From: Brachypodium distachyon
Taxonomy: Eukaryota; Streptophyta; Magnoliopsida; Poales; Poaceae
Reading direction: 5' to 3'
DNA length: 64,000 nt
NCBI RefSeq assembly: GCF_000005505.3
Contig: NC_016132.3
Coordinates: forward strand, 41,678,914-41,742,913
A program made the position numbers and the translations under genes. Of the stretch, positions 1,763-58,719 are shown piece by piece. The notes beneath the pieces are model-generated. The model saw only the letters and a list, made by a program, of their open reading frames with translations. It did no database searches and had not been told where the DNA came from. How positions within the stretch are numbered: the stretch's first letter is position 1; each line of letters begins with the position of its first letter.

Positions 1763-1765
1763 TCC

Positions 1766-2134: not shown

Positions 2135-2154
2135 GGCGCGGATAATGGTGTCAT

Positions 2155-6790: not shown

Positions 6791-6792
6791 TC

Positions 6793-6812
6793 TGGCGCGC
6801 CAGTTAGGGGGC
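6793..6812 (+). other. Primer-binding site of element A
   Basis: TGGCGCGCCAG followed by a GGGGGC-rich stretch starts two bases after the LTR end, the usual place for tRNA priming of minus-strand DNA. The core ctggcgcgccag is itself a perfect palindrome. The same sequence is at the matching place in element B. I do not name the tRNA with confidence. Confidence 0.65.
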
Positions 6813-6900
6813 GCGGGAGTGGACAGCGCCGGAGATCGCCAGCAGCAGAAGATCCCATCGGCATCGGCTTCGCTCTTCTTCGTCGACGAGCCTAGTTGCC

Positions 6901-9299
6901 ATGCCCCTAAGCGGGCTGGTTACTCCCGCATAGACCCGCGTGAGGCCCCAGCGGCGCACACGCGGTCGCACGACGTGCGACCCGAGTCGGGAGCTCAAGA
7001 GAATCCCGAGCCCTCGAGGGTGCAGCAAACGCAGCTGCCCCCGCCACCTCCCCGACCGTCGATCAACAATCGGCCGAAGGGACCGGCTGCTGCCAGTGCC
7101 GGGGGCAGTCGGGTGAGCACGCATGGCGTCGCCCGGGCCAGCCAACAGGTTGAGTCGCGGCCCGAGGATGCCCCGCGGCAGCGACACCCGGAGCACGCCA
7201 CGTCACGGCGACCCCTGGAGGTTTGCACCCTCCACACCCGGAGGCGTCCGGGGCCAGGGCGGGAAGCAGACGTTCAGGAAACCGGTTGCCCCCCGTGCGA
7301 ACCCCGGCTGAAGCCATCGTCGCCGCGCGCGTCATGGTGCAGTACGAGCCGCAGCAGGGCATGCCGGCGCACGAGACGTGGGGCGAGGAGTTGGAAGCGC
7401 GTCTCGCCCTGGCCGCCCAGCAGCCACAAGGCGAGGGCGACCCGGTAGGCTCCGGCCACGGGTAGAACCTGGAGCTCTGAGACGTGGCACCTGCCTCGTG
7501 ACAGGGGGGGAACCCTTCCCCTCCTTAGCAGGGAGGTAGACGGGGGCCCGGAGGGCTCCTCGAACTCATCGCCCACCGTCTCGGGGGGTGATATGCGTGG
7601 CATCTTGAATGCCCACCAGCAGGAGGATCTGCGCCCGCGCTTGGAGCGCCGGCGCAGGCGCGAGGTGGAGCGCCAGCGCCCACAGGAGCAGGAAGACGCT
7701 CCCATGGGCCCCGAGGACGGTTGCATCGCGTTCACGCGCGAGCTGCGGCGGGTGGCGTGGCCCCGTAAGTTCCGAGCGCCCGCGCTCGGAACGTAAGATG
7801 GGAGCGCTAACCCCAAAGATTTCCTCCTGACTTATACGCTGGGCATGCATGCCATCGGCGCCGACGACAAGGTCAGGGCGAACTGGTTCCCGATGGTCCT
7901 CAAGGGATCAGCACGAACCTGGTTGCTCAACCTGCCCGCCGGGTCCGTCGCCACTTGCGCAGACCTGCGCGAGCAGTTCGTGAGCGCGTTCCAGGGCGGC
8001 TATAAGCGCCCGGGAACCATGGCGGAGCTGCACACTATCGTGCAAAAACCGGGAGAGACGTTGCGAGCCTTCGTCAACCGCTTCTCCAACCTCTCCTATT
8101 CCATCCCAGAGGCAGAGGCGGCCGCCATTATCTACACCTTCGCCATCAACGTCCGCGATCCCAAGATGCGCGAGAAGCTGAGCACGCATCGGATCCGGAT
8201 GACGCAGGACTTGTACGCCTTGGCGCACAAATGCGCCATGGCCGAGGAAGGGCGCCTAGCGCCCGAGCTGGCAGCCCAGGCTGCCGCGAGCCCTGGCGAG
8301 GGCTCGCCGAAGAAGGGTTCCCACAAGCGCAGCAGGAAGCAAGTCCTCACTACGGACTCGGGGGCTCCTGCCGCGAGGCCTGCGAAGAAGGCCTCGCCGG
8401 GTGGAGAGTCTGGTGGGAAGCAGGGCGACGCGCCCCGCTGTCCCATCCACAACAACTCCACCCACGACGTGCAGAGTTGCCACGTTCTGCAAGGGATCAA
8501 GCAGCGGCGGGAGCAGTGCCACGAGGAGCGTCGCGCCGCCGGTGCCTGCTTCAATTGTGGCGACATCGGGAATCTCTCCCGAGATTGCCCGAACGACCCC
8601 AGAGTGGGTCTGAGGCCGGCTGGCGGTGGCGCCGGCAGGAGTGAACCCCAAGGGGGGCGCGGCCAGCCCCTCGCTGGACGGGAACGCCCTCCTCGGGGAC
8701 GCGACAGGGCGCGCGCTGAGGAGCAGCGCGTGTCCGACTATACCGGCGGCGACGAACCAGGCTTCCAGGAGCCTCGTGGCGTCGCCTGCATTCATGGGGG
8801 AGCTTACGCTCTCCCATCGCACGCCGCGGTGAAGCGCCTCACTCGCGACGTGTGCGCGCTGTTGCCGGATGCGGAGCCGCAGCAACCGCTGAGCTGGTCG
8901 CATGTGTCGGTCACCTACAGCGCCGACGATCACCCAGCGCAACAGTTGGGTTCCGGGGTAATACCCTTCGTCGTCTCGCCGATCATTAGCAATATGATAG
9001 TGACCAAGGTGCTGGTGGACAACGGAGCGGGGCTTAACCTCCTGTCCGCTAGGCTGGTGGAAAAGCTCCAGCTGCCGATGGAGCAGCTGAAGCCCACCGA
9101 ACCGTTCCGAGGGGTGAACCCCGGGATCGTGCGCCCGCTGGGACGCATCACGCTGCCGGTCACCTTCGGGTCACGGGAAGCGTTCAGGACCGAGCACATA
9201 GTGCTCGTCCTGGCGCATACCCCGTTGCCCTACAACAGGATCCTTGGTCGGCCGGCGCTGATCAAGTTGTCGAGGCTTCTTCATCAGTCTACGGAGTGA
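6901..9299 (+). pseudogene. Gag and start of protease, element A
   Basis: The start ATG at 6901 corresponds to the Gag start of arm B, but a one-base deletion in codons 2-5 shifts the frame. The readable N-terminal region is then in another phase to about 7450. A stop (TAA, 7794-7796) sits where B has Tyr. From 7845 a 484-residue frame carries the capsid domain (LRAFVNRFSNLSYS), a CPIHNNSTHDVQSC motif, a CCHC zinc knuckle and the protease active site VLVDNGAG. The knuckle reads CFNCGDIGNLSRDC: the zinc-binding His is Asn, while arm B keeps His. A one-base deletion near 9275 ends the frame within the protease. Confidence 0.82.
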
Positions 9300-11263
9300 T
9301 GAAGCTGCCGTCCGTCTACGGAGTCCTCTCCATCAGGGGCGATCTCAAAGACGCAGCTTGGTGCGTTGGCGAGGTTGTCCGGGCCGCTGCTGCAGCTGAC
9401 GCTGGCGACGAGGGTGTTGTCGAGGACGACGCCTTGCCGGGTGATGCGCCGATAACGAAGAAGGCCCGCGCCACCCCGCAAGGGCTTGCCGGGGGAGGCG
9501 CAGGCTTGAGCTCGCGCCCCAGCATGAGGCAAGGGCTCCGGGAGGAGGCCGCCAAAGTGAAGAAGCTGCCCCTCCAAGCCGGCAACAAGGAGCGCACCGT
9601 TACCGTCGGTGCGAACCTGACCGCCGAATAGGAAAGCACCCTCGTCACCTTCCTCCGGGATAACGCCGACGTGTTCGCCTGGGAACCGTCGGACCTTCCC
9701 AGAGTCCCTAGGGAGGTGATTCAGCATCGGCTCGCGGTGCACCCGGACGCGCACCCCGTCAAGCAGAAGATCCGGCGGCAAGCACAAGAGCGAAAAGATT
9801 TCATCAAGCAAGAAGTGGACAAGCTCAGGGCTGCCGGGGCGATCAGGGAAGTTTTGTACCCGACTTGGCTGGCTAACCCTGTAGTAGTGCCCAAAGCAGA
9901 GAATAAGCTTCGCATGTGCGTAGATTTTACCGATCTTAATCGTGCATGCCCCAAGGATCCCTTCCCTGTACCCCGTATCGACCAGATAGTTGATTCTACC
10001 GCTGGTTGTGACTTGTTGAGTTTTCTGGATGCTTTCTCCGGCTACCATCAAATCAAGATGGCGGTCGAGGATGAGGAAAAGACAGCGTTTATCACACCGG
10101 TTGGCTGCTATTGCTATACATGCATGCCTTTCGGGTTGAAGAACGCGGGCTTCACATTCCAGCACGCCCTGCGCGAATGTTTGGGGCCCCAGCTAGGCCG
10201 CAACGTGGAGGCCTACATGGACGACATCGTCATCAAATCGAAGCGTAGGGACTCGTTGGTTGATGACCTGCGGGAGACGTTTGACAACCTCCGCAGGATC
10301 AAGCTCAAGCTGAACCCTGATAAGTGCACCTTCGGTGTCAACTCCGGGCAGCTTCTGGGTTTCTTGGTTTCACACCGGGGGATACAGGCCAACCCGACCA
10401 AAATAGAAGCTACCAAGAAGATGGAGGCCCCCCACAAGGTAAAAGATGTCCAGCGCCTCAACGGCTGTGTTGCCGTGCTGGGACGTTTCATCTCCAGGCT
10501 CGGCGAGCGTGCCTTGCCTTTCTTCCGGGTAATGAAGAAGAAGGGTACGGTCGACTGGACCCCCGAAGCCGAGGCGGCGTTCCAGGAACTCAAGCAGTAC
10601 CTGAGGTCGCCGCCCACCCTCGTCGCCCCCAAGCTGTGCGAGCCGCTGCTACTCTACCTAGCGGCGACTGACCAGGTGGTCAGCTCGGTGCTGGTTGCCG
10701 AGAGGGAGGAGGACGTCCCGGGGACTGGGGCGGCGGGGCAGGGGGCTGAGTGGCCTCCGGCAACCACCTCATACCCGGGGACCGCCCCCGAGTCGACAAC
10801 CTTGGCACCGCGGAAGCGGTCGGTGCAGCGCCCGGTGTACTTCGTTAGTACGGTGCTGCGCGATGCGCGGACAAGGTACCCGCAAGTACAGAAGCTCCTT
10901 CTGGGGATTCTCCTTGCGTCCCGCAAGCTGTGCCACTACTTCCAGGCGCACCGTGTCACGGTGGTGTCCAGGTTCTGCCTCGAGCGAGCGCTCACCAACC
11001 GTGAAGCCACCAGGAGGGTGGCCGAGTGGAGGATGGAGCTGTCAGAGTTCGACATCTGCTTCGCAACCTCCAAAAGCATTAAGAGTACGGCCCTGGCGGA
11101 CTTCGTCGCGGAATGGACGTCTACGGGCGTAGAAGAAAGTGAGCCGGAGACCAGCCTTCCGGGCAAGCTGGATGAGGGCCACTGGGTCCTCTACTTCGAC
11201 GGTGCGTTCAGTCTTCAGGGAGCGGGGGCCGGGGTCGTCATCGAGTCACCAACAGGGGACTAG
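9296..11263 (+). pseudogene. Protease tail, reverse transcriptase, RNase H and part of second RNase H, element A
   Basis: A linker frame (9296-9631) ends with TAG in a place where CAG is expected (TAE then ESTLVTFL). From 9671 a 530-residue frame has the RT fingers ([21 protein letters not shown]), the catalytic YMDD at residues 182-185, the gypsy RNase H and the beginning of the second RNase H ([15 protein letters not shown]). It stops at TAG 11261-11263 (SPTGD, then LRFAVQL in the same phase). Arm B has the same TAG at the same codon. The RT catalytic motif is intact, but the polyprotein is broken. Confidence 0.85.
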
Positions 11264-11938
11264 TTGCGGTTCGCTGTCCAACTCGACTTCGCCAACTCCA
11301 CCAACAACACAGCGGAGTACGAGGGCCTGCTTGCCGGGTTGCGGGCAGCGGTTGCCCTCGACATCAAGCGCCTGGTTGTTCGCGGCGATTCCCAGCTCGT
11401 GATCAACCAGGTGAAGGAGGTCCGCAAGCTGGAACGAAAGTTCAAAGGTTTGCGCTTCGAGCAGGTCAAGCGGAAGGATAACTTCGCTGCCGACGAGCTG
11501 GCCAAGATGGCAGCAGAACGCCGGAAGCCTCCGGCGGGGGTTTTCTGCCAGAAGCAAGTGGCTCCTTCAGTCGCCCCCCAGCCGGCTGCCCCTCCGGCAA
11601 CCGAAGGAACCTCTGCATCAGCAGGGGTCCATGCCGCGGATATGGCAGCATGCGTTGGCAGGGGGATTCCCCCCTGGGCGGAAGAAATTGCCCGCTATTT
11701 GAAAGGGGAGGCTCTCCCGGAGGATGACGTCGCCGCGGAGCGTATAGCGCGGCAAGCCAAGATGTACACTGTGGTAGATGGTAACATCTATCGCAGGCGT
11801 GCGAATGGTGTCAAACTCATCTGCGTGCCGAAGGAAGAAGGGTGCGCACTGTTGGAGGACATACATCGAGGCACATGTTCACACCATGTGGCCTCCCGGG
11901 CTCTAGCCGACAAGGCTTTCCGGCATGGCTTCTACTAG
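11264..11938 (+). pseudogene. Second RNase H and integrase zinc-binding region, element A
   Basis: This continues the pol frame in the same phase after the TAG at 11261: NTAEYEGLLAGL and RGDSQLVINQ are the RNase H Glu and Asp motifs, and the CSHHVASRALADKAFRHGFY segment is integrase zinc-binding. Compared with arm B, 39 bp (13 codons, B's segment around KDYDCPQMVPYVE) are missing in frame after VINQV. It ends at TAG 11936-11938 where the family signature has Trp (GFYWPT). Arm B has the same TAG. Confidence 0.82.
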
Positions 11939-12756
11939 CCCACGGTCCTGGCCGACGCAGAGCGGCTGGTGAGGACGTGCGAGGCGTGCCAGTTCCACTC
12001 AAAGGAGAGCAACCAACTGGCGCAGGCCCTGCATGTCATTCCGTCCTCATGGCCGTTCGCGGTCTGGGGGCTGGACATCGTCGGCAAGCTACCAAGGGCG
12101 GTTGGTGGTTACGAATATTTGTTTGTGGCCATCGACAAGTTCTCCAAATGGGTGGAGGTGGAACCAGTGCGGAAGGTGACCGCCCAGGCGGCCATCAAGT
12201 TCTTCAAGGGCATCGTATGCCGGTTTGGTGTTCCTAACAGCATCATCACCGACAAAGGCATGCAATTCACGAGCGCGGCGTTTCAATCCTACTGCGAAGA
12301 CATGGGCACTAAGCTGCGCTTCGCGTCCGTCGCTCACCCGAGGAGCAACGGACAGGCGGAGCAAGCCAACGCAGAGGTGCTGCGAGGGCTCAAGACGAGA
12401 ACCTTTGACAAGCTCAAAGGCCACGGGAAGCACTGGGTCGAAGAACTCCAGCCCGTGCTGTGGTCCGTCCGGACCACACCTAGTCGGGCAACGGGCGAAA
12501 CTCCTTTCGCCCTTGTCTACGGGGCAGAAGCGGTGCTGCCCCTCGAGCTCAAGTACGGATCTCCCCGAGTACGCGCGTACGACGACACCAGCCAACACGA
12601 GCAAAGGGTCGATGATCTAAACTTCATCGAAGAGCTTCGATGCCGGGCTGCTGCGCGAGCCGCGCGCTACCAGCAAGGACTCCGTCGTTATCACGATAGG
12701 CAAGTCCGTCCCCGGTGGCTCGAGAACGGAGACCTTGTCCTGCGCCGGATACAAGG
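11939..12756 (+). pseudogene. Integrase catalytic core, element A (C-terminus deleted)
   Basis: In phase with the previous segment: CEACQFHSKE (zinc cysteines), VWGLDIVG (Asp), IITDKGMQF (Asp, with the usual following Asn changed to Lys) and SNGQAEQANAE (Glu). The frame runs through NGDLVLRRIQG and then jumps into GC-rich non-coding repeat sequence at about 12756. Arm B shows the missing part: the end of integrase and about 1 kb of following DNA. The residues after RIQG in this open frame are therefore not integrase. Confidence 0.85.
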
Positions 12757-12781
12757 GCCGTTAGGGCGGGTGGTGCCACGG

Positions 12782-13282
12782 AGGCGCGGAGGTGGTGCTT
12801 CCCGCCTGCGCCTAGCGCCGGCGGGTTCGCCGCCATCGCGCCCCTGCTGCATCACCCCATCGAGCCAGCCCCGAGGGACGCTACAGAGGCTCGATGGTAG
12901 GGCATGCCCTCCGCGTCCCGCGCCGACGGGTGCACTGCCGTTGTGCCCCTGCTGCGCTTCCTCAAGGGGGCGGCTCCTGGGCGAGGGTCGCCGCAAAGAC
13001 ACTGTGGTGGTGCATCCCCTCAGCGTCCGGCGCCGACGGGGTGCATTGCCACAGTGCCCTTGTCGCCCCCCCTCCATAGGACACCTCCGCGAGCAGCAGG
13101 GGTTGCCGCGGAGACTCTATGGTAGTGCGTGCCATCCGTGCCTCGCGCCGATGGGTGCACTATCATAGAGACCCGGCCGCATTTCCTTTGAGAGGGCCTT
13201 TTTCGGGCGTGGGTCGTTGCGAGGACGCTGTGATGGCGCCGGTGCCGGCGCTCGTCGCCCGTTCCGGCCCATCACCGCGTCC
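12782..13282. repeat. Five-unit stem-loop array, arm A
   Basis: Five imperfect inverted repeats of about 60 nt occur at a regular pitch, with starts near 12782, 12886, 12998, 13112 and 13223 (steps 104, 112, 114, 111). Examples are CTCTATGGTAGTGC (13114-13127) facing GCACTATCATAGAG (13157-13170), and GGACGCTGTGATGG (13223) facing CCATCACCGCGTCC (ends 13282). The units differ in sequence but each keeps its dyad. Arm B has the same five in inverse orientation. The array lies between pol and the antisense gene and contains no recognisable protein. Confidence 0.8.
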
Positions 13283-13397
13283 CTGCCGCGGCCCTCGAGC
13301 AGTTTTGCTCCCGAGTAAAAAGGGCCGTCACCTCCCTTGGGACGAGTTCCCCAGAAAACAACCCAGGTCTCCCCAGTTGCGGGGGCTGTCGCTGGGA

Positions 13398-13469
13398 GGC
13401 TATAACTTCCCCGCCACTAGTGCCCACCGTTCGGGGTGGGGCGAAGCCGGCAGTGAGGACGTTATAGCC
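13398..13469. other. Additional stem-loop (ggctataac / gttatagcc), arm A
   Basis: GGCTATAAC at 13398-13406 faces GTTATAGCC at 13461-13469, with further pairing inside the stem. It lies beyond the five-unit array and outside its regular spacing. The matching stem in arm B is at 20524-20595 and pairs for 14 of 15 positions. Confidence 0.65.
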
Positions 13470-13793
13470 GTCTCGCGGCTGCTCCCGGGGCGGAGTCCTC
13501 CTACGCCAGGGTTCTTCCCTGAAAGCCAGGGTCCGCCCCTGAAGGCGAGGGTTGCCGCGTGAGCGTGGTGGTAGCATCGTCGGCGGCGGTTGCCGCTGGC
13601 AGCGATCCTGCCCCCGCGCTCCCGCCGCATCCCTCAGAGATCGTTTCCCTTGAGCAGGTACACAAGGTGGTTCCCTCCCAAGGCAATGCCTCGTCTGCAC
13701 TCTACCGCCGAGCGGCACGAGACATTGGACCGAACGGAAAAGCTAAGTATCTAAACATGAACGTTGAATTCGCTAAGAGCTGAACGAAACTGA

Positions 13794-14440
13794 GCACTGT
13801 CTCGCTGGGTGTGACCCCGAGTCCCGCACGTAGCCGGAGTGTGAAAAGGGACGCTTGCGGGGGGAGTGCGCTCCCCGTGGGGCTTCACGGGTCCGTCCCG
13901 GAGGGGCACGGCTTGGAGTAGCTACCCCGCAAGCGGAGTGGCTCCCCGCTACCGCTTGCCCCCAGGTTGTCACCACGGGTCCGTCCCGGGTCCCTGGTCT
14001 GGTCAAGGGTGGTGCGCGCGCGAGTCCCCCACAACACAAGGCAAAATACGCGAAGGCTAAAAGCCCCCCCCCCCCGCCAGACAGTGTCAGGAACAGCGAA
14101 CTTGTCGAAAAGTTTACTCAACTAAGAGTTAGCGCTGCTTCGCCAGGTGTGGTCCCAGAACCTGCGCGTGGCCGGGGTGTGAGGAGGACACTTGCGGGGG
14201 GAGTGCGCTCCCCGTGTGGCTCTCGGGTCTGTCCCGGGAGGGCATGGCTTGGAGTAGTTACCTCGCAAGTGGAGTGGCTCGCCGCCTACCGCTTGGCCCC
14301 AGGTCGGCACCACGGGTCCGTCCCGGGTCCCTGCTCTGGTCAGGGGTGGGGCGTGCGAGTCCCCGGCAACACAAGGCCAAGCACGCAAAGGCTAAGGGAA
14401 CCACCCCGCGAGCAGCCTCGGGAACAAGGGACAAAAATTG
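13794..14440. repeat. Tandem duplication of about 330 bp, arm A
   Basis: Two diverged copies, about 13794-14104 and 14126-14440, share the landmarks cttgcggggggagtgcgctcc, gcttggagtag, caccacgggtccgtcccggg and acaacacaaggc/aacacaaggc. Arm B has a single copy (about 19880-20220), so this is a duplication in A or a loss in B. A 12-base C run sits in the first copy at 14064-14075. Confidence 0.75.
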
Positions 14441-14507
14441 AGCAAATTAACAAGCTTGATTAAGTACCAAACGATTACATGGACTGATCAAAAGGTCATT
14501 GTTCAAA

Positions 14508-14522
14508 TGGCGCTAAGCGCCA
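14508..14522. other. 15-base palindrome tggcgctaagcgcca
   Basis: A perfect palindrome around a central base lies between the tandem duplication and the antisense gene's stop codon. It is conserved in arm B at 19801-19815. It is short, so it could be a protein site or mere chance, but both arms keep it unchanged while the flanks differ. Confidence 0.4.
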
Positions 14523-14590
14523 TACTTGCAGGGAAGACAAACAGAAGAAGGTACAGTGGAAGCAACGAGCACGGCTGGGGGTTGCGGCAA

Positions 14591-17240
14591 CTAGTTGTCG
14601 CCGTCTTCGGCCGGGGGGTCGACGGGGGGATCAGGCTCCGGCTTCATCTGCATCCACTCGACGACCTCGTCGACACACTCGCGCACTGCTTGGGTGTGCG
14701 TGGGCTCGTCCTCGCTGTCGGACCAAGCGTCCAGCAGGGACTCGAAGGGGAATTCCGGGTCCCGGAGATGAATCCGCGGGAGGATTGTCCCGGCAACCTC
14801 CCGCACGCAGTTGGCGACTTCGTTGGCGCCATACTTGGCGATCCAGACGTCGAGCGCCCCGAGCTTCCCCACCAAGTCGGAGAAGAAGGGGATCAGCGTC
14901 GTGACGTCCGTGCCGTCCACCTCCCCCGCCTGCAGCTCGAACTTGGGCAGCAGGTCACGCAGCGACAGGGCGATCTTCGCCAGCTTCTCCGCTTCGAGCT
15001 GCCGCTGCCCGATCAGCGTGCCATGATGGAGTCGGGCATCTTGCACGGCCTTCTTGGCCTTGCTGACGCGGCCCTCCAGCTTCGCAAGCTCTAAGGCCTG
15101 GGTCGCGTTGGCCTCGCCGGCCTTGGCAAGCTCTTCCCGGACGGCGGCCAACTCATCCTCAAGCCCGGCCGCTCTGCCTTTGGCGGAGTTGAGCTCGGCC
15201 TCGTGCTGAGCCGCCGCTCTCGCCGCATCCTCGGCAACCTTGACCTGCACCTCCAGCAGGACGCGGAGGCCTTGGATTTCGCTGTGGTAGTTGGCGATCA
15301 GCTCGCTCTTCTCGTCCAGCCGCGCCTAGGCCATCGCGAGCCCCTCGGCATGCTCCTTCCAGGACGCTTCGAGAGTAGCCTCCATCGTGTCGAGGCTTCC
15401 CTGGAGCTCCGCGCGCTGGACCTCCAGTTGCCGACGGAGCTCGGTCTCCGGGACTACCGGCTCCCGTGCAGCCTCCAGGGCTTGCCGGGCCAGCCGCGCC
15501 TCCTCTTCGGCGAGGCGCGCCTCCTCGCGCAGCCGGGAGAGTTCGCGTCGCTCTCTCTCCACGGCCTCCCGCAACTCGCCGAGTTGATTCTTGGCGGCGG
15601 TGTGACGCTCCCTCACCTCGTTGTAGGAGGTGACGAAGGCGAACTGCTGGTCCCGAACGGCGTCCAGGAATCGGTGCCCCCGCTCAAAGACACTTGGATC
15701 CCACGTAAGGGGGTTCCAAGCGACCCCGGCGAGGGTGCCGAGGTCGGTGCCGGGGAGAGCCCCTGAGGGTGAAGACGCCCCTGCTGCCGAAGTGGGACTG
15801 GACGCGGGGTCGCCAACTTGCTCCCGGGGGTCTTGCCTTCCTTCCCCAGCAACTTCCCCCACGCCTGCGCTCGGGGACACCGGCGTTGGAGAGGGCTCCC
15901 CGCTCCCGGCAAGCGTTGCCTCCTGTTGGGCGACAGGTGAGCCCGTGCCTACCGCGTCCGTGGCTTCGGGTGCGTCTCCAGGAGCCGTCACGGCGCCGAC
16001 GGCATCCTCTGCTGCCGCAGCGTCCGTCGCAGCGAGGCCGGACGTGAGAGCCGGTTCCGCCTCCACCTCCGCCCCCGCACCCTCGACGACCGAGTCGGGG
16101 TCGACCACGGCCGCGCCTGTTCTGGGCGCGGGGGCACTTGTGCCTGCAACCATGAAGAAGCATGAGGGTCGGCGATGGCTGGTGCTATTGAAGGCCAACA
16201 AGGGCGACCGGGGCGGTTACCTTGTGCGGCCGTCGGGCTTGCCGGGGCAGCTTCCCCTACCTCGTCTGCGCCAGCGGGAGCGTCCAAGGATCATGCCGCG
16301 GGCGAGCTGCCGCTTGCTGCAGAAAGAGAAGGTATGTTTGTGAGTTTGGCTAGCAGGAATTGCAGTTGCAGGGAATCAATGAAGACGTACCCGGTGCCGG
16401 CCCTGCATCTGTCGGGGCTGGGTCACCAAAGGACATGCCCGCGCCGCTGCGCGTTCTCTTGCTTGGCGTGCCGGGCGGGGAATCGCTCCTCGCCCTCTTG
16501 CTGGCGCCCGCCGGCGAGGAGGACTTCGGGGGGTTGCGCCGGAGCGCGAAGCCCCGGAAGACCCACAAGCGGGCGGCGCCGTGGGCGCCCGCGGTGTCGT
16601 CGTGACCCGGAGAGCTCCGGGTGTCGATGGCGATGCCGCCGTGGCGCCGGGCGCCAAGTTCACGGAGGCCCCCGCCCCCGGGGCAAAGGCCGTTGTCGGG
16701 GCACCGGTGACCACCGCAGGTGCGGGCTTTGCCAGGGTACCGACGGGCACCCCGGGACCGGTTCCCGCTGCGGAGCTGGCGGCCGCAGCCAAGGCCGGGG
16801 CCGCCGCCGCTGAGGCACTCGCGGCCCCTATTGCCGCGGCTGCCGTCGGGGTACCGACGGGCACCCCGGGCGCTGCCGCCACCGCCATGTCGGTGGCCGC
16901 TACCGGAGCGGACGTCGCCATTGAGGAGACGGCTGCGGCCGCTGTGAACGCCCTCGATCTTCTTATGATCAAGGGCGCGCTGTCGCTGCTTTCTTCGTCG
17001 TCGTCCTCCACGGCGACGACTTCCGGGGACGCGGCCACCTGACCGGCCTCGTCGTCCAGAAACCGGAGGGCAAGCCAGCGGGGCTCGGACCCACCCTCGC
17101 TCTCCTCGAGCACCTGCTTCCCGCTGGATGCTCGCGGGGGAGCGTGCGGGACCCGGGTGGGGGTGTCTTTCATCAGCCCCCACTCGTTGAAGGCGGGAAG
17201 GCGCCAACGATGTCGCTGAGCGCCCTGACGCCCGCGTGGA
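14591..17240 (-). pseudogene. Spliced antisense gene of element A (coiled-coil protein, 5' end lost)
   Basis: It runs opposite to gag-pol. Exon 3 is 16143 to 14591, exon 2 is 16316 to 16221, and exon 1 runs from 16391 to about 17240. The introns (16317-16390, 74 bp; 16144-16220, 77 bp) have GT..AG ends and keep the frame, and arm B has introns of the same lengths at the same places. Exon 1 encodes an acidic VEDDDEESSDSAP stretch, then Ala/Pro-rich low complexity and a basic KR patch. Exon 3 encodes a long Glu/Ala/Arg-rich coiled coil ending PPAEDGDN. One in-frame TAG (15323-15325) replaces the CAG seen in arm B. The N-terminal coding part is cut off at the centre. An antisense ORF downstream of pol is known in some Tat-type elements; I cannot name a function. 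Confidence 0.7.
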
Positions 17241-17282
17241 GAGCGGAATCCCTCGGCGGGAGCTCCGTCGACTAAAAGATAT
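17041..17282. other. Unpaired centre of the inverted repeat
   Basis: Homology between arms stops at about 17020 on the left and 17283 on the right (the facing sequences are around the codons for AVEDDDEE). The roughly 240-260 bp between them reads, on the minus strand, as further upstream coding sequence of arm A's antisense gene (NEWGLMKDTPTR to FLDDEAGQVAASPE). The right arm therefore starts deeper inside the gene than the left arm, giving an asymmetric junction. Confidence 0.65.
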
Positions 17283-19731
17283 CGCCGTGGAGGACGACGA
17301 CGAGGAAAGCAGCGACAGCGCGCCCCTGATCCTGAGAAGGTCGAGGGTGTTCGCGGCGGCCGCAGCCACTTCCTCAACAACGACATCTGCCCCGGCAGCG
17401 GCCCCCACCCTGGCGGCGGCTACCGCTCCTGGGGCGCCCGCTGGTACCACGACGGCATCCACGGCAACAGGGGCCACGAGTGCCTCGGCGGCGGCCCCTA
17501 TCTTGCCGGCGGCCGCCGGCTCCGCGGCGGGATCCGGCCCCGGGGTACTCGCCACCTGCGGGGGCCTTCGGCGCCCCGGCGACGGCCTTCGCTCCGGTAG
17601 CGGGCGCCTCCGCGAGCTTGGCGCCCGGCGGCACGGCGGCATTGCCATTGACACTTGGAGCTCTCCGGGTCACGACGACACCGCGGGCGCCCACGGCGCC
17701 GCCCGCCCGGGGGGTCTTCCGGGGCTTCGCGCTCCAGCGCAACCCTCCGAAGTCCTCCTCGCCGACGGGCGCCAGCAAGAGGGCGAGGAGTGATTCTCCG
17801 ACCGGCTCGCCAAGCAAGAGGACGCGCGCGGACGCTGGCAGCGCCACCGACCCCGCTGCCTCGGGGGCTAGCGTCGGCACGGGCGCGCCCCTTGGCGACC
17901 CAGCCCAAGCGGAGACAGGGCCGGCACCAGGTATGTCTTCGTCGATTCCCTGCAACTGCAATTCCTGCTAGCCAAATTCACAAACATGCCTTCTCTTTCT
18001 GCAGCGAGCGGCAGCTCGCCCGTGGCAAGACTCTTGGACGCTCCTGCTGGCGCAGGCGAGGTAGCGGAGGCTGCATCGGCAAGCCCGACGGCCGCACAAG
18101 GTAACCGCCCTGGTCGCCCCTATTGGCCTTCAATAACACCAACCATCGCCGACCCTCATGCTTCTCCTCGGGTGCAGGCACAAGCGCGCCCGCGCCCGAA
18201 ACGGGCGCGGCCATGGTCGACCCCGACACGGTCGTCGGGGCCACGGGGGCGGAGGTGGAGTCGGAAACGGCTCCCGTGTCCGCCCCCGCCGCGACGGACA
18301 CAGCGGCAACAGTGGGGACCGCCGCCGCCGCGGCGGCACCCGGCGACGTGCCAGAAGCCGCAGACGTGGCCGGCCTGGGCTCACCCGCCGTCCAGAAGGG
18401 GACGACCCCCGCCGGAAGCAGGGAACCCTCTCCAACCCCGGTGTCCCAGAGCCTGGGCGCGGGGGAAGTTGTCGGGGAAGGACGGCAAGACCCCCGGGAG
18501 CAAGTTGGCGACCCCGCGCCCAGCTCCACTTCAGCAGCTGGGGCTTCGTCATCCTCGGGGGCTCTCTCTGGCACCGACCTCGGCACCCTCGCCGGGGTCG
18601 CTTGGAATCCTCTTACCTGGGATCCGAGCGTCTTCGAGCGGCGGCACCGGTTCCTGGACGCCGTCCGGGACCAGCAGTTCGCCTTCGTCACCTCCTACAA
18701 CGAGGTGAGGGAGCGCCACACCGCCGCCAAGAATCAACTCGGCGAGGTGCGGGAGGCCGTCGAGAGAGAGCGGCGCGAACTCTCCCGGCTGCGCGAGGAG
18801 ACGCGCCTCGCCGAAGAGGAGGCGCGGCTGGCCCGGCAAGCCCCGAAGGCGGCTCGGGAGCCGGTAGTCCCGGAGACCGAGCTCCGTCGGCAACTGGAGG
18901 TCCAGCGCACGGAGCTCCAAGGTAGGCTCGACGCAATGGCGGCAACCCTAGAAGCTTCCCGGAAGGAACATGCCGAGGTGCTCGCGGCGGCCCAGGTGCG
19001 GCTAGACGAGAAGAGCGAGCTGATCGCCAACTACCGTGGCGACATCGAAGGCCTCCGCGTCCTGCTGGAGGTGCAGGTCAAGGCCGCCGAGGGCGTGGCG
19101 AGAGCGGCGACTCAGCACGAGGCCGAGCTCAACTCGGTTAAAGGCAAAGCGGCCGGGCTTGAGGACGAGTTGGCCGCCGTCCGGGAAGAGCTCGCCAAGG
19201 CCGGCGAGGCAACCGCGGCCCAGGCCTTAGAGCTTGCAAAGCTGGAGGGCCGCATCAGCAAGGCCAAGAAGGCCGCGCAAGACGCCCGACTCCATCACCG
19301 CACGCTGATCGGGCAGCGGCAGCTCGAGACGGAGAAGCTGGCGAAGATCGCCGGGTCGCTGCGCGACTTTGGTGCCCAAGTTCGAGCTGCAGGCGGCGGA
19401 GGTGGACGGCACGGACGTCACGACGCTGATCCCCTTCTTCTCCGACTTGTTGGGGAAGCTCGGGGCGCTCGACGTCTGGATCGCCAAGTACGGCGCCAAC
19501 GAAGTCGCCAACTGCACCCGGGAGGTTGCCGGGACAATCCTCCCACGGATACATCTCCGAGACCTGGAATTTCCCTTCGAGTCCCTGCTGGACCCTTGGT
19601 CCGACAGCGAGGACGAGCCCACGCACACCCAGGCAGTGCGCGAGTTCATCGACGAGGTCGTCGAGCGGATGCAGATGAAGCCGGAGCCTGAACCCCCCGT
19701 CGACCCCCCGGCCGAAGACGACGACAGCTAG
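17283..19731 (+). pseudogene. Spliced antisense gene of element B (coiled-coil protein, 5' end lost)
   Basis: Exon 1 ends at 17930, exon 2 is 18005-18100, and exon 3 starts at 18178 and ends with the stop at 19729-19731. The introns are 17931-18004 (gtatgt..tgcag, 74 bp) and 18101-18177 (gtaacc..tgcag, 77 bp). Joining them keeps one reading frame: exon 1 and exon 2 both end in phase 1. The protein has an acidic start, an Ala/Pro-rich part, a basic patch (SKRARSDS), an acidic/Ala-rich middle and a coiled coil of about 250 residues. The C-terminus reads PPAEDDDS. A one-base insertion near 19368 shifts the frame, but arm A is open there. Its first coding exons are missing at the junction. Confidence 0.72.
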
Positions 19732-19879
19732 TTGCCGCGGCCCCTGGCTATACTCGTTGCTTCCCCTGTACCTCTTTCTTGTTTGCTTTACCTGCAAGTA
19801 TGGCGCTTAGCGCCATTTGGACAATGACCTTTTGGTTAGTCCATGTAACCACTCGACACCTAGTCAATCAAGCTTGTTA

Positions 19880-20220
19880 GTTTGCTCAATTTTTGTCCTT
19901 TATTCCCGAGGCCGCCTCGCGGGGTGGTTCCCATAGCCTGTGCGTGTCTTGCCTTGTGTTGCGGGGGGGCTTGCGCACGCCTCACCCTTGACCAGACCAG
20001 GGACCCGGGACGGACCCGCGGTGCCGACCAGGGGCCAAGCGGTAGCGTGGAGTCACTCCGCTTGCGGGGTAACCAACCCAAGCCGTGTCCTCCCGGGGCG
20101 GACCCGGGAGCCATACGGGGAGCGCACTCCCACCGCAAGCGTCCCTTCTAACACTCCGGCTACGCGCGGGATCCGGGGCCGCACCCAGCGGGGCAGTGCT
20201 CAGTTTCGTTCAGCTCTTAG
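19880..20220. repeat. Single copy of the GC-rich unit duplicated in arm A
   Basis: In inverse orientation this matches each half of 13794-14440 (landmarks gagcgcactcc, gggacggacccg, cttgtgttgcgggg). It has no coding potential that I recognise. It separates the antisense gene's 3' end from the stem-loop region. Confidence 0.65.
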
Positions 20221-20523
20221 CGAATTCAGCGTTCATGTTCAGATACTTAGCTTTTCCGTTTGGTCCAACGTTCCGCGATGCTCTGCGGTAGAGTGCAGAC
20301 GGGGTGCCACCTCGGTAGGAAACCATCCGGGGTACCTGTTCAGGGGAAACGATCTCAGAGGGATGCGGCAGGAATGTGGGGGCAGGATCGCCGCCGGCGG
20401 TAACCACCAATGACGATGCTACCACCACGCTCACGCGGCAACCCTCGCCCTCAGGAGCGGACCCTGGCCTTCAGGGACGAACCCTGGCTTAGGAGGGCTC
20501 CGCTCCGGGAGCAGCCACGAGAC

Positions 20524-20595
20524 GGCTATAACGTCCTCGGCGCCGGCTTCGTCACACCCCGAATGGCAGGTACGGGTGGCGAGGAAGTTATAGCC
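20524..20595. other. Additional stem-loop, arm B
   Basis: GGCTATAACGTCCTC (from 20524) faces GAGGAAGTTATAGCC (to 20595), 14 of 15 pairs. It is the counterpart of the stem at 13398-13469. The loop sequence differs between arms more than the stem does. Confidence 0.65.
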
Positions 20596-20709
20596 TTCCA
20601 GCGATAGCCCCCGCAACTGGGGAGACCTGGGTTTTCTCTAGGGGACTCGCCCCAAGGGATGCGACGACCCTTGTTACCCGGGAGCTAAACTGCTCGAGGG
20701 CCGCGGCAA

Positions 20710-21208
20710 GGACGCGGTGATGGGCCGGAACGAGCGACGAGCGCCGGCACCGGCGCCATCACCGCGTCCTCGCAACGACCCGCGCCCGAAAAAGACTCTC
20801 TCAAACGGAATGCGGTCGGGTCTCTGTGGTAGTGCACCCGCCGGCACAAGGCACGGATGGCACGCACTACCATAGAGTCTCCGCGGTCGACCCTGTTCCT
20901 TGCGGAGGTGTCCTACGGAGGGGGGCGATAAGGGCACTGTCGCAATGCACCCCGTCGGCGCCGGACGCGGACGGGACACACCGCCACAGTGCCTCTGCGG
21001 CGACCCTCGCCCCGGAACCACCCCTTTGAGGAAGCGCAGCAGGGGCACAACGGCAGTGCACCTGTCGGCGCGGGACGCCGATGGCACGCACTACCCCCGT
21101 GCCTCTGCGGCGCCCCTCGGGGTGGGCTCGATGGGGTGGTGCGGCAGGGGCGCGGTGGCGGTGCATCTGCCGGCGCTAGGCGCTGGCGGGAAGCACCACC
21201 TCCGCGCC
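20710..21208. repeat. Five-unit stem-loop array, arm B
   Basis: Stem-loops start at 20710, 20821, 20932, 21042 and about 21148 (steps 111, 111, 110, 106). The first is a perfect 14-bp stem, GGACGCGGTGATGG (20710-20723) with CCATCACCGCGTCC (20756-20769). The second pairs CTCTGTGGTAGTGC with GCACTACCATAGAG, one G:T. The third pairs GGCACTGT with ACAGTGCC. The stems have clearly different sequences but the same length, position and loop size. The spacers of about 50 bp are related too (tctgcggcg-type starts), so the array is a diverged tandem repeat whose dyads were kept. Confidence 0.82.
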
Positions 21209-21280
21209 TCCGTCGCACCACCTGCTTTCACGGCCCCGAACCCGGCTTCGCTCTGAGCAATTCCATGGTTGGGGCGCGCC

Positions 21281-21406
21281 TTTTATAGACACGGGGGTGG
21301 GCTTGCCACCACGCGCGACGGATCCGCGCGGCACCGTGGCGCCATTTCCCTGAACGCGGCGCCGTTTCCGCCGCCATGCTTACCGGGTAACCACGGCACA
21401 CGTGGC
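21281..21406 (-). promoter_or_regulatory. Candidate internal promoter (TATA plus G-box) facing the stem-loop array
   Basis: On the minus strand a clean TATA box, gtctataaaaggcgc (TATAAAA at 21287-21281), lies about 110 bp downstream of a G-box/ABRE-like ACACGTGGC (21398-21406). Transcription from it would start near 21255 and run through the five stem-loops. Arm A lacks this region because of its deletion after integrase. The motifs are seen; promoter activity is inference. A decayed LTR of another family is an alternative. Confidence 0.4.
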
Positions 21407-21755
21407 GGCCAGCCGCCAACTCAAAAGCCTCAGAGTGCGGTGAACCCCTTGTGTTGCAGTCCTCCCGCACCACAAGGGACTGGTGTATGGTGCGTCCCGT
21501 GGGCAGCTCACGGGCACCACAGTGTACAAGATTCCTCCCTTTCCTGCAGGTTAGACTCTTACCAGATCCGAGGTGCTGAAATTTTTTCGAAACTTACGAA
21601 AGCAAGTAACACAGGTGAATCAGATAAATCTCATCTCTCCTGCTTCCCAGCCCCCGGCACAAAGGGGTCGATGCCAAACTTGGATGTGAGCGTTTCCTTC
21701 CCGGACGCAGCGACTGCGCGGTGCAGGCGGCGGGAGGCCGAGCAACCGCACGCCA

Positions 21756-21833
21756 GTGGTGCACGTTGCGGGAAGCCCGCCAACGGCACGACCAGTGATG
21801 CACGTTGCGGGAAGCCCGCCAACGGCATGTCCA
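21756..21833. repeat. 39-bp tandem repeat, two copies
   Basis: Units 21756-21794 and 21795-21833 share gcacgttgcgggaagcccgc and differ at only a few bases. They are found only in arm B, in the non-coding part between integrase and the stem-loop array. Thirty-nine is a multiple of three, but I see no protein family here. Confidence 0.7.
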
Positions 21834-22101
21834 GTGCCGGAACGATCCAGCAACGGGTTTTCGTTTCGGGGCCACGGCAGCCCCTTGCTCACAACCAAGT
21901 AGGGAAAGACACCTTTGTGCATTTAAAGCAGGAGGCAAGAGGGGGAAAACAAGCGAATGAACAAGGCAAGAACATAGCTCAGGGGTGAAACACCTATCTT
22001 TATTCACAGTTAACTAGCGGTTTACACACGGGGGCTGCCCGGTTACACTAGTTCGAGAGGTATGCATCGGAGGCATCACCTGAGGGTCGGGCTCCGCCGC
22101 T

Positions 22102-23072
22102 TCACGGGTAGAACTTGCGCAAGTGTTCCATATTCCAGCTATTGGGCACCGGCAAGTCGTCTTCGGTTTCCAGGCGGACAGCCCCCGGCCTGGTCACCTG
22201 CACTACCCGAAAAGGGCCCTCCCATTTCGGAGTCAACTTGTTCCCGGCCTTCGTTCCTTGTATCCGACGCAGGACAAGGTCTCCGTTCTCGAGCCCCCGA
22301 GGACGGACTCGTCTGTCGTGATAACGACGGAGTCCCTGCTGGTAGCGCGCGGCTCGCACAGCAGCCCGGCACCGAAGCTCTTCGATGAAGTTTAGATCGT
22401 CGACCCTCTGCTCGTGTTGGCTGGCGTTGCCATACGCGCGTACTCGGGGAGATCTGTACTTGAGCTCGAGGAGCAGCACCGCTTCTGCCCCGTAGACAAG
22501 GGCGAAAGGAGTTTCGCCCGTTGCCCGACTAGGTGTGGTCCGGACGGACCACAGCACGGGCTGGAGTTCTTCGATCCTGTGCTTCCCGTGGCCTTTGAGC
22601 TTGTCAAAGGTTCTCGTCTTGAGCCCCCGCTGAACCTCTGCGTTGGCTCGCTCCGCCTGTCCGTTGCTCCTCGGGTGAGCGAAGGACGCGAAGCGCAACT
22701 TAGTGCCCATCTCTTCGCAGTAGGCGCGAAACGCTGCGCTCGTGAATTGCGTGCCATTATCGGTGATGATGCTGTTGGGAACCCCGAACCGGCACACAAT
22801 GCCCTTAAGGAACTTGATGGCCGCCTGGGCGGTCACCTTGCGCACTGGTTCCACCTCCACCCATTTGGAGAACTTGTCGATGGCCACAAACAAGTATTCG
22901 TAACCGCCAACCGCCCTTGGTAGCTTGCCGACGATGTCGAGTCCCCAGACCGCGAACGGCCATGAGGACGGGATGGCATGCAGGGCTTGGGCTGGTTGGT
23001 TGCTCTTCTTCGAGTGGAACTGGCACGCTTCGCACGTCCTACCAGCCGCTCTGCGTCTGCCAGGGCCGTGGG
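22102..23072 (-). pseudogene. Integrase, element B
   Basis: The reading frame carries LDIVGKLP (Asp), IITDNGTQF (Asp) and SNGQAERANAE (Glu), then NGDLVLRRIQGTKAGNKLTPKWEGPF and a natural end HLRKFYP at 22102. Unlike arm A this integrase has its complete C-terminus. It is separated from the zinc-binding part by the shared TAG at 23073-23075. Apart from that stop the core looks intact. Confidence 0.85.
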
Positions 23073-23795
23073 CTAGTAAAAACCATGCCGGAAATCCTTG
23101 CCGGCTAAAGCCCGGGAGGCCACATGGTGTGAACATGTGCCTCGATGTATGTCCTCCAACAGTGCACACCCTTCCTCCTGCGGCACGCAGTGGAGTTTTA
23201 CACCATTCGCACGCCTGCGGTAGACGCTGCCGTCTATCACGGTGTACATCTTGGCTCGCCGCGCTACGCGCTCCGCGGCGACGTCATCCTCCGGGAGAGT
23301 CTCCCATTTCAAATAGCGGGCGATCTCTTCCGCCCAGGGAGGAATTTCTCTGCCCATGCATGCCGCCATATCAGCGGCATGGACCCCTGCTGCTGCAGGG
23401 GTTCCCTCGGTTGCCGCAGGAGCGTCCCCGACAGCCGTCTGGGGGGTGACTGAAGGAGCCAGTTGCTTCTGACAGAACACCCCTGCCGGAGGCTTCCGGC
23501 GCTCTGCTGCCATCTTGGCCAGCTCATCAGCAGCGAAGTTGTCCTTCCGCTTGACGTGTTCGAAGCGCAAACCCTTGAACTTCCGTTCCAGCTTGCAAAC
23601 CTCTTCCACGTACGGGACCATTTGAGGGCAATCGTAGTCCTTGTTCACCTGGTTGATCACAAGCTGGGAATCACCGCGAACAACCAGGCGCTTAATGTCG
23701 AGGGCGACCGCTGCCCGCCGCCCGGCAAGCAGGCCTTCGTACTCCGCCGTGTTGTTGGTGGAGTTAGCGAAGTCGAGTTGGACGGCGAACCGCAG
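23073..23795 (-). pseudogene. Second RNase H and integrase zinc-binding region, element B
   Basis: The segment reads from the TAG at 23796-23798 (shared with arm A) through TAEYEGLLAGR, RGDSQLVINQVNKDYDCPQM and CSHHVASRALAGKDFRHGFY to the TAG at 23073-23075. It keeps the 13 codons that arm A has lost. The two stops are at the same codons as in A, one at a Gln position and one at the conserved Trp of GFYWPT. Confidence 0.82.
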
Positions 23796-25343
23796 CTAGT
23801 CCCCTGTGGGTGACTCGATGACGACCCCGGCTGCCGCTCCCTGGAGACTGAACGCACCGTCGAAGTAGAGGACCCAGTGGCCCTCGTCCAGCTTGCCGGG
23901 AAGGCCGGTCTCCGACTCACTTTCTTCTACGCCCGTGGACGTCCACTCCGCGACGAAGTCCGCCAGGGCCGTGCTCTTGATGCTTTTGGAGTTGGCGAAG
24001 TGGAGGTCAAACTCCGACAGCTCCATCCTCCATTCGGCCACTCTCCCGGTGGCTTCACGGTTGGTGAGGGTCTTCTCGAGGCAGAACCCGGACACCACCG
24101 TGACGCGGTGCGCCTGGAAGTAGTGGCGCAACTTGCGGGACGCAAGGAGAATCCCTAGAAGGAGCTTCTGTACTTGCGGGTATCTTGTCCGCGCGTCGCG
24201 CAACACCGTACTGACGAAGTACACCGGTCGCTGCACCAACCGCTTCCGCGGCGCCGAGGTTGCCGGCTCTGGGGTGGTCCCTTGGCTTGAGGTGGTTGCC
24301 GGAGGCTGCTCAGCCCCCTGCCCCGCAGCCCCAATCCCCGGGACGTCTTCCTCCCTCTCGGCAACCAGCACCGAGCTGACCACCTGGTCAGTCGCCGCTA
24401 GGTAGAGCAGCAGCGGCTCGCCCAACTTGGGGGCGACGAGGATGGGCGGTGACCTCAGGTAGCGCTTGAGTTCCTGGAGCGCCGCCTCGGCCTCGACAGT
24501 CCAGTCGACTGGACCCTTCTTCTTCATTACCCGGAAGAAAGGCAGGGCAAGCTCGCCTAGCCTGGAGATGAAGCGTCCAAGCGCGGCAACGCAGCCGTTG
24601 AGGCGCTGGACATCTTTCACCTTGCGGGGGGCCTCCATCTTCTCAATGGCTTCTATTTTGGTCGGGTTGGCCTGTATCCCCCGGTGTGAAACCAAGAAAC
24701 CCAGAAGCTGCCCGGAGTTGACACCGAAGGTGCACTTATCCGGGTTCAGCCTGAGCTTGATCTTGCGGTGGTTGTCAAATGTCTCCCGCAGGTCATCAAT
24801 CAGGGAGTCCCTACGCTTCGATTTGATGACGATGTCATCCATGTAGGCCTCCGCGTTGCGGCCTAGCTGGGGCCCCAAACATTCTCGCAGGGCGCGCTGG
24901 AATGTGGAGCCCGCGTTCTTCAACCCGAAAGGCATGCATGTATAGCAGTAGCAGCCAACCGGGGTGATAAACGCTGTCTTTTCCTCATCCTCGACCGCCA
25001 TCTTGATTTGATGGTAGCCGGAGAAAGCATCCAAAAAACTCAACAGGTCACAACCAGCGGTAGAATCAACTATCTGGTCGATACGGGGTACAGGGAAGGG
25101 ATCATTGGGGCATGCACGATTAAGATCGGTAAAATCCACGCACATGTGAAGCTTATTCCCCGCTTTGGGCACCACTACAGGGTTAGCCAGCCAAGTGGGG
25201 TACAAAACTTCCCTGATCGCCCCGGCAGCCCTGAGCTTGCCCACCTCTTGCTTGATGAAATCTTTCCGCTCTTGTGCCTGCCGCCGGATCTTCTGCTTGA
25301 TGGGGCACGCGTCCGGGCGCACCGCGAGCCGATGCTCAATCAC
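23796..25343 (-). pseudogene. Reverse transcriptase and RNase H, element B
   Basis: A 515-residue frame with RT motifs [31 protein letters not shown] (catalytic YMDD), LGFLVSHRG and the gypsy RNase H ([32 protein letters not shown]). It ends at the TAG shared with arm A. Its start (IEHRLAVRPD) abuts a deletion of about 190 bp that removed the protease-RT linker still present in A at about 9510-9705. Confidence 0.85.
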
Positions 25344-26212
25344 CTCCCTGGGACTCCGGGACGCGCGCTCGAGCCCGCACCTCCTCCGGCTAGCCCTTGC
25401 GGGGTGGCGCGGGCCTTCTTCGTTGCCGGGGCGTCACCCGGCAGGGCGTCGTCCTCGACAACACCTTCGTCGCCGGCGTCAACTGCAGCAGCGGCCCGGA
25501 CGACCTCGCCAACGCACCAAGCAGCGTCTTTGAGATCGCATCCGATAAAGAGGACTCCGTAAATGGACGGCATCTTCATCACGCCGTAGGCGCAATGCGT
25601 AGCCGCCATAAACTTGATCAGCGCCGGACGGCCAAGGATCCCGTTGTAGGGCAACGGGGTATGCGCCACGTCGAACACTATGTGCTCGGTCCTGAATGCT
25701 TCCCGGGACCCGAAGGTGACCAGCAGCGTGATGCGTCTCAGCGGGCGCACGATCCCGGGGTTCACCCCCCGAAACGGTTCGGTGGGCTTCAGTTGCTCCA
25801 TCGGCAGCTGGAGCTTTTCCACCAGCCTGGCGGACAGGAGGTTAAGCCCCGCTCCGTTGTCCACCAGGACCTTGGTCACCGTCATATTGCTAATGATCGG
25901 CGAGACGACGAAGGGTATTACTCCGGAACCCAAGTGTCGCACCGGGTGGTCGTCGGCGCTGAAGGTGATCGGCACGTGCGACCACCTCAGCGGCTGTTTC
26001 GGCTCCGCATCCGGCAATAGCGCGCACACGTCGCGGGTGAGGCGCTTCACCGCGGCGTGGGATGGGAGAGCGTAAGATCCCCCATGGATACAGGCGACGC
26101 CACGAGGCTCCTGGAAGCCCGGCTCGTCGCCGCCGGAATGGTCGGACTCGCGTTGCTCCTCGGCGCGCACCCTGTCGCGCCCACGAGGAGGGCGTTCCCG
26201 CACAGCGAGGGG
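25340..26212 (-). pseudogene. Protease region, element B
   Basis: A 287-residue frame with LPSHAAVKRLTRDVCALLP, the aspartic protease active site KVLVDNGAGLNLLSARLVEKL and LPYNGILGRPALIKFMAA. It is intact where arm A has its one-base deletion. The upstream stop at 26213-26215 is TAG where arm A has CAG (GRGQPLAG in A). The frame ends in the junction of the 190-bp deletion. Confidence 0.82.
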
Positions 26213-27966: not shown

Positions 27967-28056
27967 GGTGACAAGGCTCGTCGACGAAGAAGAGTGAAAC
28001 CGATGCCGATGGGAACTTCCGCTGCCGGCGATCTCCGGCGCTGTCCACTCCCGCGC

Positions 28057-28074
28057 CCCCTACCTGGCGCGCCA
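28057..28074 (-). other. Primer-binding site of element B
   Basis: On the minus strand TGGCGCGCCAGG followed by TAGGGGG lies two bases after the LTR end (gatgaca). It matches element A at the same place. Confidence 0.65.
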
Positions 28075-28076
28075 GA

Positions 28077-36875: not shown

Positions 36876-36953
36876 GGTCTCTCTTCAGCAGGTACAGGTT
36901 ATACGGCTTTTCTTTTCTTATGTCAGTGGGGCTTTCTTACGATACGAAATTGG

Positions 36954-58376: not shown

Positions 58377-58719
58377 GACGCGCTGGACTTGGCGAAAATT
58401 TGTATTCGAGACGCGCGTGTTTCACAGACCAACAGCGCTCACTCCTGAACCCTACGGCGAAGCCCTGCCCGACTCTGCCTCCGCCGTCGCCACCGCCATT
58501 CCCCGCGCCGCCGCCACAAAGCCTAGCCGCCGCCGATGTCTTCGCAGGGGACGTCGGGGAAGACGAACCGCAGCAGCAAGGTGCGGCGCCGGCCCCGGCC
58601 GCTGGATCTGGCGGCCCCGTGAGGAGGGTACGCAGCCGGAGCTCTTCCGCGACCCCCGCTCCTGCCGACCTTGCGGCCGCCGACCCCGTCACCCCCACGG
58701 CCGCGACCCCCGATTAGGG

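Follow-up and report, generated by a model that had tools for sequence, protein, structure and literature searches.

We use the window for the whole 64,000-nucleotide stretch of Brachypodium distachyon DNA analyzed here, in which each arm of a large inverted repeat carries a short run of closely spaced stem-loops. A first-pass annotation proposed that the stems differ from unit to unit while each retains its own pairing, and that it is the folding and not the sequence that is maintained, with a packaging or dimerisation signal, phased small RNAs or a silencing decoy as possible roles. The locus thus raises the question of whether selection has acted on the pairing of these hairpins and, if so, at which level (RNA or DNA) and to what end for the element that carries them.

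The host element and its hairpins

Positions 5803-29086 of the window comprise a Ty3/gypsy element present twice in inverted orientation; the two copies meet near 17282-17287 and both lack the 3′ LTR. Copy A (5803..17287, forward strand) runs from the start of its 5′ LTR (TGTCGCACC) to the center of the inverted repeat, and copy B (17282..29086, reverse strand) from its 5′ LTR start at 29086 to the same center, with TGTCGCACC being the LTR end. In its own direction, the element displays an LTR, gag-like frames (recognized by eye), pol with the integrase, about 890 nt (measured in arm B from the end of the pol frame to the array start), the array, about 1 kb, and an ORF on the opposite strand; the array is situated in the non-coding stretch between pol and this antisense ORF. 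The pol open frame of arm B (22102..23283, reverse strand) shows a Pfam match to the integrase core (PF00665, 60.2 bits), while arm A is missing about 1 kb, which includes the last part of the integrase frame as well as the sequence preceding the array. The antisense ORF is represented by open frames in both arms, namely a part of it in arm B (18105..19691, forward strand, i.e., antisense to the arm B pol), which has no Pfam match, and two pieces in arm A (14591-15325 and 15326-16216, reverse strand).

PF04195 (TRP28) was absent from the window frames tested, both arms ending before the 3′ LTR, and is present on the antisense side of a fuller relative (L047:6782-7801, reverse strand, 58.4 bits). 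In this relative the array begins at position 2331 and the LTR at 8043, which, together with about 0.9 kb borrowed from arm B, yields an estimate of ~6.6 kb for the POL-3′LTR region, at the upper edge of the 2,933-6,566 bp reported for Retand elements in a 2025 survey. From the PF00665 match, the PF04195 match in the relative and the long POL-3′LTR region, we classify the element by sequence as a Retand-type (Tat) member of Ty3/gypsy.

The five stem-loops per arm reported at a pitch of ~110 bp were located in both arms, as were the stem examples quoted in the first-pass annotation. Each arm has five hairpins of ~62 nt, with 24-27 predicted pairs per hairpin and a pitch of 105-115 nt. In arm A they fold at 12780..12845, 12885..12950, 12995..13061, 13110..13175 and 13219..13286 (hairpins 1-5, forward strand), with the stem starts spaced by 105, 110, 115 and 108 nt; in arm B, hairpins 1-5 fold at 21146..21211, 21041..21106, 20930..20996, 20817..20882 and 20708..20771 (reverse strand). 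The folding energies of the arm A hairpins (-50.9, -44.5, -41.5, -38.6 and -33.8 kcal/mol in 66-nt windows) compare with best-five-window means of -38.5, -34.4, -32.6, -30.6 and -29.0 kcal/mol in 60 dinucleotide shuffles of that arm, and lie below every one of the shuffles at all five ranks (shuffle minima -46.3, -38.0, -37.6, -36.9 and -32.7), so that the fold-versus-shuffle comparison bears out the hairpins as more stable than composition predicts. Those of arm B have energies of -52.1, -48.8, -46.6, -42.2 and -32.5, the weakest being just inside the shuffle range of arm A, from which alone this control was made.

A single covariance model, whose training set included some of these same units, matches units 1-4 of both arms at 68-76 bits: 69.5 (model R1; 28.0 on the opposite strand), 73.2, 73.2 and 74.7 bits in arm A, and 76.2, 73.3, 68.1 and 69.2 bits in arm B. 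The fifth unit is more divergent. In arm A the base of its stem resembles the other units by eye with a different apical part, and the unit model misses it at E up to 1; in arm B it is matched on the forward strand, i.e., inverted, at 25.6 bits. Overall, unit 5 shows a weak model match in five of the searched arrays, inverted in four of them, and none in arm A. The units are, on these matches, homologous, diverged tandem copies; hence, of the earlier description of stems differing from unit to unit, the differing letters and the retained pairing stand, whereas the units are not unrelated sequences. The arms themselves are copies of one family with 88% identity over the array and are not independent, and the persistence of the array in both had been overvalued as evidence.

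The array across the genome and its subfamilies

The array is not limited to the two copies in the window. Of 964 candidates in the 271-Mb, 11-contig genome, 40 matches were scored, arm A being one of them, and every one of the 40 carries the array, at 90-100% identity; 30 of these were taken into the set with the exclusion of L001, which is arm A itself. Diverged arrays were present at two further loci, L051, with six hairpins, and L048, as a second array. Searches with these diverged arrays, in which 40 matches were scored of 1,026 and of 1,035 candidates, added seven arrays in all. The resulting set comprises subfamily A with 31 arrays (arms A and B together with L002-L030), subfamily C with five (the second array of L048, L051 and L060-L062) and subfamily D with four (L056-L059), the split between C and D being drawn by eye from an alignment of nine arrays; every sequence compared comes from one genome.

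The spacing of the hairpins is tightly preserved across this set. In 36 of the 40 arrays all steps fall within 1 nt of 105, 110, 113-115 and 107-111, and the remaining four have one deviant step each, of 94, 100 (twice) or 119 nt. A sixth unit is present in all five C arrays, and in none of the four D arrays or the nine A arrays displayed. The model had no match at E up to 1 in five loci of 9.9 kb that follow the integrase of a different Ty3 family (L049 and L052-L055), and neither the plasmid records nor the viral contigs searched contained relatives.

Compensatory change in the stems

Covariation between units was assessed with a tree-aware test over 71 units (four units of 18 arrays, minus unit 3 of L056, which has a deletion) against 1,000 simulations under a null that preserves the changes per column and per branch. 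The top two of the 1,953 column pairs are stem pairs (E 0.000 and 0.008), and a third stem pair ranks fourth without being significant (E 13.7). Both the stem score, 239, and the fraction of paired cells, 94.2%, exceed the highest values reached under the null (123 and 88.4%, respectively). In a set of 47 units, 94.9% of cells pair in register versus 27-56% when the strands are slid, and the covariation score is 0.282 versus 0.191 after shuffling, a value reached by none of 500 shuffles, with paralogous units not counting as independent trials. Two of five shuffle measures were not exceeded, namely pairs changed on both sides (95/500) and further pair types (187/500); likewise, more pairs with changes on both sides occur at a slide of +2 (10) than in register (7), but in fewer cells (26 versus 73).

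The comparison between subfamilies used the base stems alone, as did the allele and wobble counts below; RNAalifold disagreed with the single-sequence folds in the apical pairing, the latter were adopted as the pair set, and apical pairs were excluded from these counts. With ties given to A, 3 of 66 base-stem pairs are doubly changed and still paired from A to C, and 2 of 66 from A to D, whereas permutations redistributing the same changes over the same letters give means of 0.44 and 0.19 matched doubles and reach as many in 33 and 96 of 10,000 trials, respectively. The outcome shifts slightly, to 3 and 3 doubles, when the ties at pair 9 of unit 2 (in C) and pair 9 of unit 4 (in D) are resolved the other way, which leaves our weighing of the explanations as it was. 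Pairing is kept at 65 of 66 pairs in both the A-C and A-D comparisons, with permutation means of 56.5 and 59.0; as many kept pairs arise in none of 10,000 permutations for C and in one for D. Of the swapped pairs, two lie in unit 4, where one T-A became A-T and one A-T became G-C (the latter in C, with a 2:2 tie in D), and the third lies in unit 2, where A-T gave way to G-C; G:U intermediates are found at two of the three. These double changes are few in number, which we count against a selective explanation.

Within subfamily A the picture is a different one. Minor alleles were counted at base-stem pairs, leaving aside those carried by over 6 of the 31 copies, those with gaps and those at two pairs that are most often mismatched. 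Of the 76 that remain, 30 keep the pair and 46 break it. Those arising from Watson-Crick pairs lead to G:U in 18 cases, A:C in 12 and other mismatches in 22; those from G:U pairs lead to Watson-Crick pairs and to mismatches in 12 cases each. One further minor allele, outside the 76, is doubly changed and still paired. The supposition that stems within the family resist decay thus fails at this depth, the decay being as expected without selection after insertion; decay of this sort was among the outcomes that the first-pass annotation had itself named as refuting its reading. Because copies of the same subfamily decay freely, likeness between the two arms proves little, and the arm-versus-arm comparison was dropped as proof of constraint.

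The contrast between the two levels is captured by a McDonald-Kreitman-like comparison. Eleven of the 66 base-stem pairs differ between subfamilies, and ten of these are paired in all three groups, giving 10 kept to 1 broken versus 30 to 46 among the minor alleles (Fisher P 0.002 with ties to A; under the opposite treatment of ties, 11 to 1 and P 0.001). Fixed differences affect 9 of 132 stem sites (0.068 per site) and 12 of 163 spacer sites (0.074; Fisher P 1.0). Stems drift about as fast as spacers yet stay paired, which suggests that the letters are free and the pairing is not. Accordingly, the claim that folding and not sequence is maintained holds, as judged from these alignments, between subfamilies and between units, and falls away where it was drawn from arm-to-arm pairing.

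That stem sites evolve no more slowly than spacer sites nevertheless counts against selection and fits the main rival account, in which template switching during reverse transcription or DNA replication repairs palindromes (quasi-palindrome correction) and yields matched changes without selection or function. Reverse transcription indeed traverses folded RNA every cycle. However, repair of this kind would tend to replace tracts, whereas the double changes observed each concern a single pair, and some copies show G:U intermediates; such repair also predicts no bias of G:U over A:C. On the pol strand, the commonest base-stem states over the three groups (n=198) are 168 Watson-Crick, 26 G:U (at 12 positions), no A:C and 4 other. 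In subfamily A alone, the commonest wobbles are 11 G:U to 0 A:C as compared to 18:12 among new wobbles (P 0.018). The G:U excess does not stem from the folding program, because Watson-Crick pairs set the register. We hence regard template-switch repair as unlikely, while placing it first among the alternatives.

The same wobble pattern speaks for RNA of the pol strand as the molecule that folds, rather than for cruciforms in DNA or a symmetric repair process, although the claim about the strand is suggestive only, because the fold energies are mixed and the spacers are strand-biased too. In subfamily A the sense fold is lower than the antisense fold in 30, 30, 28, 17 and 11 of 31 copies for units 1-5, and in C/D in 2/9, 3/9, 8/8, 6/9 and 2/9, so that the energies agree with the sense strand for A units 1-3 and C/D unit 3 and not elsewhere. 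Spacers likewise differ by strand (0, 29, 0 and 29 of 31 copies), and base composition biases shuffled units by a mean of up to 2.6 kcal/mol between strands. Strand preference by folding energy was consequently set aside as a mixed result and is counted against our preferred explanation.

Possible roles and comparison with known systems

We lean towards the array being a cis-acting RNA element of tandem stem-loops, whose folding in the sense RNA would have been under selection and which would probably act as a protein platform in packaging or export. While the lineage was active, selection would have preserved the fold of the sense (genomic) RNA, and evenly spaced, repeated hairpins would most likely offer multiple sites to an RNA-binding protein. 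Such a protein might be the Gag nucleocapsid, acting in packaging, or a carrier of unspliced genomic RNA out of the nucleus. Selection on a copy would end once it is inserted; with copies unselected from then on, pairs would decay freely inside any one subfamily.

Other roles for the hairpins can be envisaged. With ~26 pairs they are long enough for Dicer-like enzymes, which might cut them, so that they would either give rise to small RNAs or act as a decoy sparing the coding region. In the part of PMC10760457 consulted, hairpins of maize LTR elements are reported to be 2.9-fold richer in small RNA than the rest. Against this, Rfam returned no family at its cut-off for 12600-13500, where the best hit to a described miRNA family was MIR1437 at 20.2 bits versus a cut-off of 168, and a hairpin that silences its own element might be expected to be removed by selection; a small-RNA role accordingly appears quite improbable to us.

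A further alternative is that a short sense transcript starts at an internal TATA box and has the array as its structured leader. A TATAAAA box is located at 21281..21287 (reverse strand), 76 nt before hairpin 1 of arm B, and the same motif is found 74-76 nt ahead of hairpin 1 in 29 of 31 A arrays (absent from L002 and from arm A, the latter by deletion) and in all five C arrays, with the four D stretches starting inside the place of the box. The 120 nt upstream of the array in arm B resemble the LTR core promoter with a score of 56, reached by 1 of 1,000 shuffles. Nonetheless, A/T letters mutate less than CpG, and survival of the box is for this reason weak evidence. Moreover, no long sense frame common to the copies was seen downstream of the array: stops counted per copy amount to 6-20 per sense frame in 1,250 nt across 28 of 31 copies, three being left out for incomplete homology. 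We view a leader of this type as still less probable. Finally, action at the DNA level, as cruciforms or as a regulatory array to which dimeric transcription factors bind, would accord with the adjoining promoter-like stretch and with the description of palindromic repeat arrays as cis-regulatory regions of transposable elements in the portion of PMC10760457 consulted, but is very improbable, as a fixed binding site would preserve letters that the stems swap and A:C would be expected to be as common as G:U, which is not so here.

The cis-acting RNA element favored here has its closest counterpart in the repeats of Retand elements. Like these, the array lies between pol and the 3′ LTR near the end of pol, is family-specific and varies in unit number, and, as in Retand elements, it is accompanied by an antisense ORF with PF04195, here in the relative L047. 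An earlier source on the Retand repeat system is reportedly Macas 2009. Repeats between pol and the 3′ LTR, of 8-100 bp, are described as a known Retand trait of unknown origin and function in the sections of PMC11963269 that we used, and a word search of that text returned no mention of hairpin, stem, inverted repeat or secondary structure. In contrast to the repeats as described there, each ~110-nt unit of the present array contains a hairpin with a covarying stem. A second point of comparison is provided by the miRNA-like hairpins and palindromes in the LTRs of Copia/Sirevirus elements (Bousios 2016, as cited in the part of PMC10760457 consulted); these too are palindromes in plant LTR retrotransposons, but according to that account they are concentrated in the LTRs, whereas the present array is internal and belongs to a Ty3 element. 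The openly licensed literature searched, mostly at the level of abstracts, contained no description of a covarying hairpin unit in Retand repeats; relative to it, the covarying hairpin unit is what appears new here, the repeats between pol and the 3′ LTR themselves being already known in Retand. Given the compensatory evolution in this array, Retand repeats look, at least in this clade, like structured RNA and not debris, and their function becomes testable, with the array offering an RNA on which the orphan antisense protein can be tried.

In its presumed working, the array is comparable to the Rev response element and the constitutive transport element of MPMV, which are folded RNAs in a genomic transcript, as predicted for the array; for this feature covariation supports the folding of the array, while the strand evidence is mixed. 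The MPMV element sits between pol and the 3′ LTR, a place that it shares with the array. For the Cer1 CERV, the part of PMC10309623 consulted describes an extra element protein required for the export of genomic RNA. With all three, the likeness would be one of working only, no sequence relation being expected. By analogy with them, there is a slim chance that the element's antisense-encoded protein (TRP28) or Gag assembles on the hairpins in the manner of a Rev response, for nuclear export or entry into particles. If true, this would unite the antisense ORF and the 3′ repeats of Retand elements in a single purpose.

Inverted element copies and their flanks

Two copies of one Ty3/gypsy (Retand-type) LTR retrotransposon, arm A and arm B, form an inverted repeat of about 23 kb at 5803–29086. 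At both outer ends of this repeat a 5′ LTR starts, while a 3′ LTR is absent inside, and the arms meet at 17282–17287, where the points of the element that are joined do not correspond. As the 5 bp bordering the repeat on the outside differ between the two ends, no target duplication is seen. On either side the repeat seems to be bordered by pieces of another Ty3 family, at 1022–5853 (minus strand) and 29087–29800, the latter matching stretches downstream of the integrase in that family.

Hairpins beyond the five-unit array

In the diverged subfamily C, the array is succeeded by a sixth hairpin whose stem is quite unlike the others in sequence; in L051, a locus of the same genome, it lies at 8581–8650 (local coordinates). 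Some subfamily C loci have a further partial copy of this stretch. Weak extra hairpins matching the covariance model of the units (E-values in the range 0.03–0.6) are found about 270 nt past hairpin 5 in three other loci, namely L043 (3144–3208), L046 (3115–3179) and L047 (3126–3190).

Other features of arm B and the window

The window further contains an AT-rich tandem array of 31-nt units (58713–59094) and two open frames: one of 461 aa (53547–54932), which we take to resemble a CACTA-type transposase fragment, and one of 429 aa (35595–36884, minus strand), presumably resembling a BAHD acyltransferase gene. Within arm B, a 39-bp tandem repeat (21730–21836) lies between the array and the end of the integrase. 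Ahead of the array is a C-rich, promoter-like stretch (21211–21331, minus strand; TATAAAAGGCGCGCCCC), which is similar to the core promoter of the element's own LTR at 6363.
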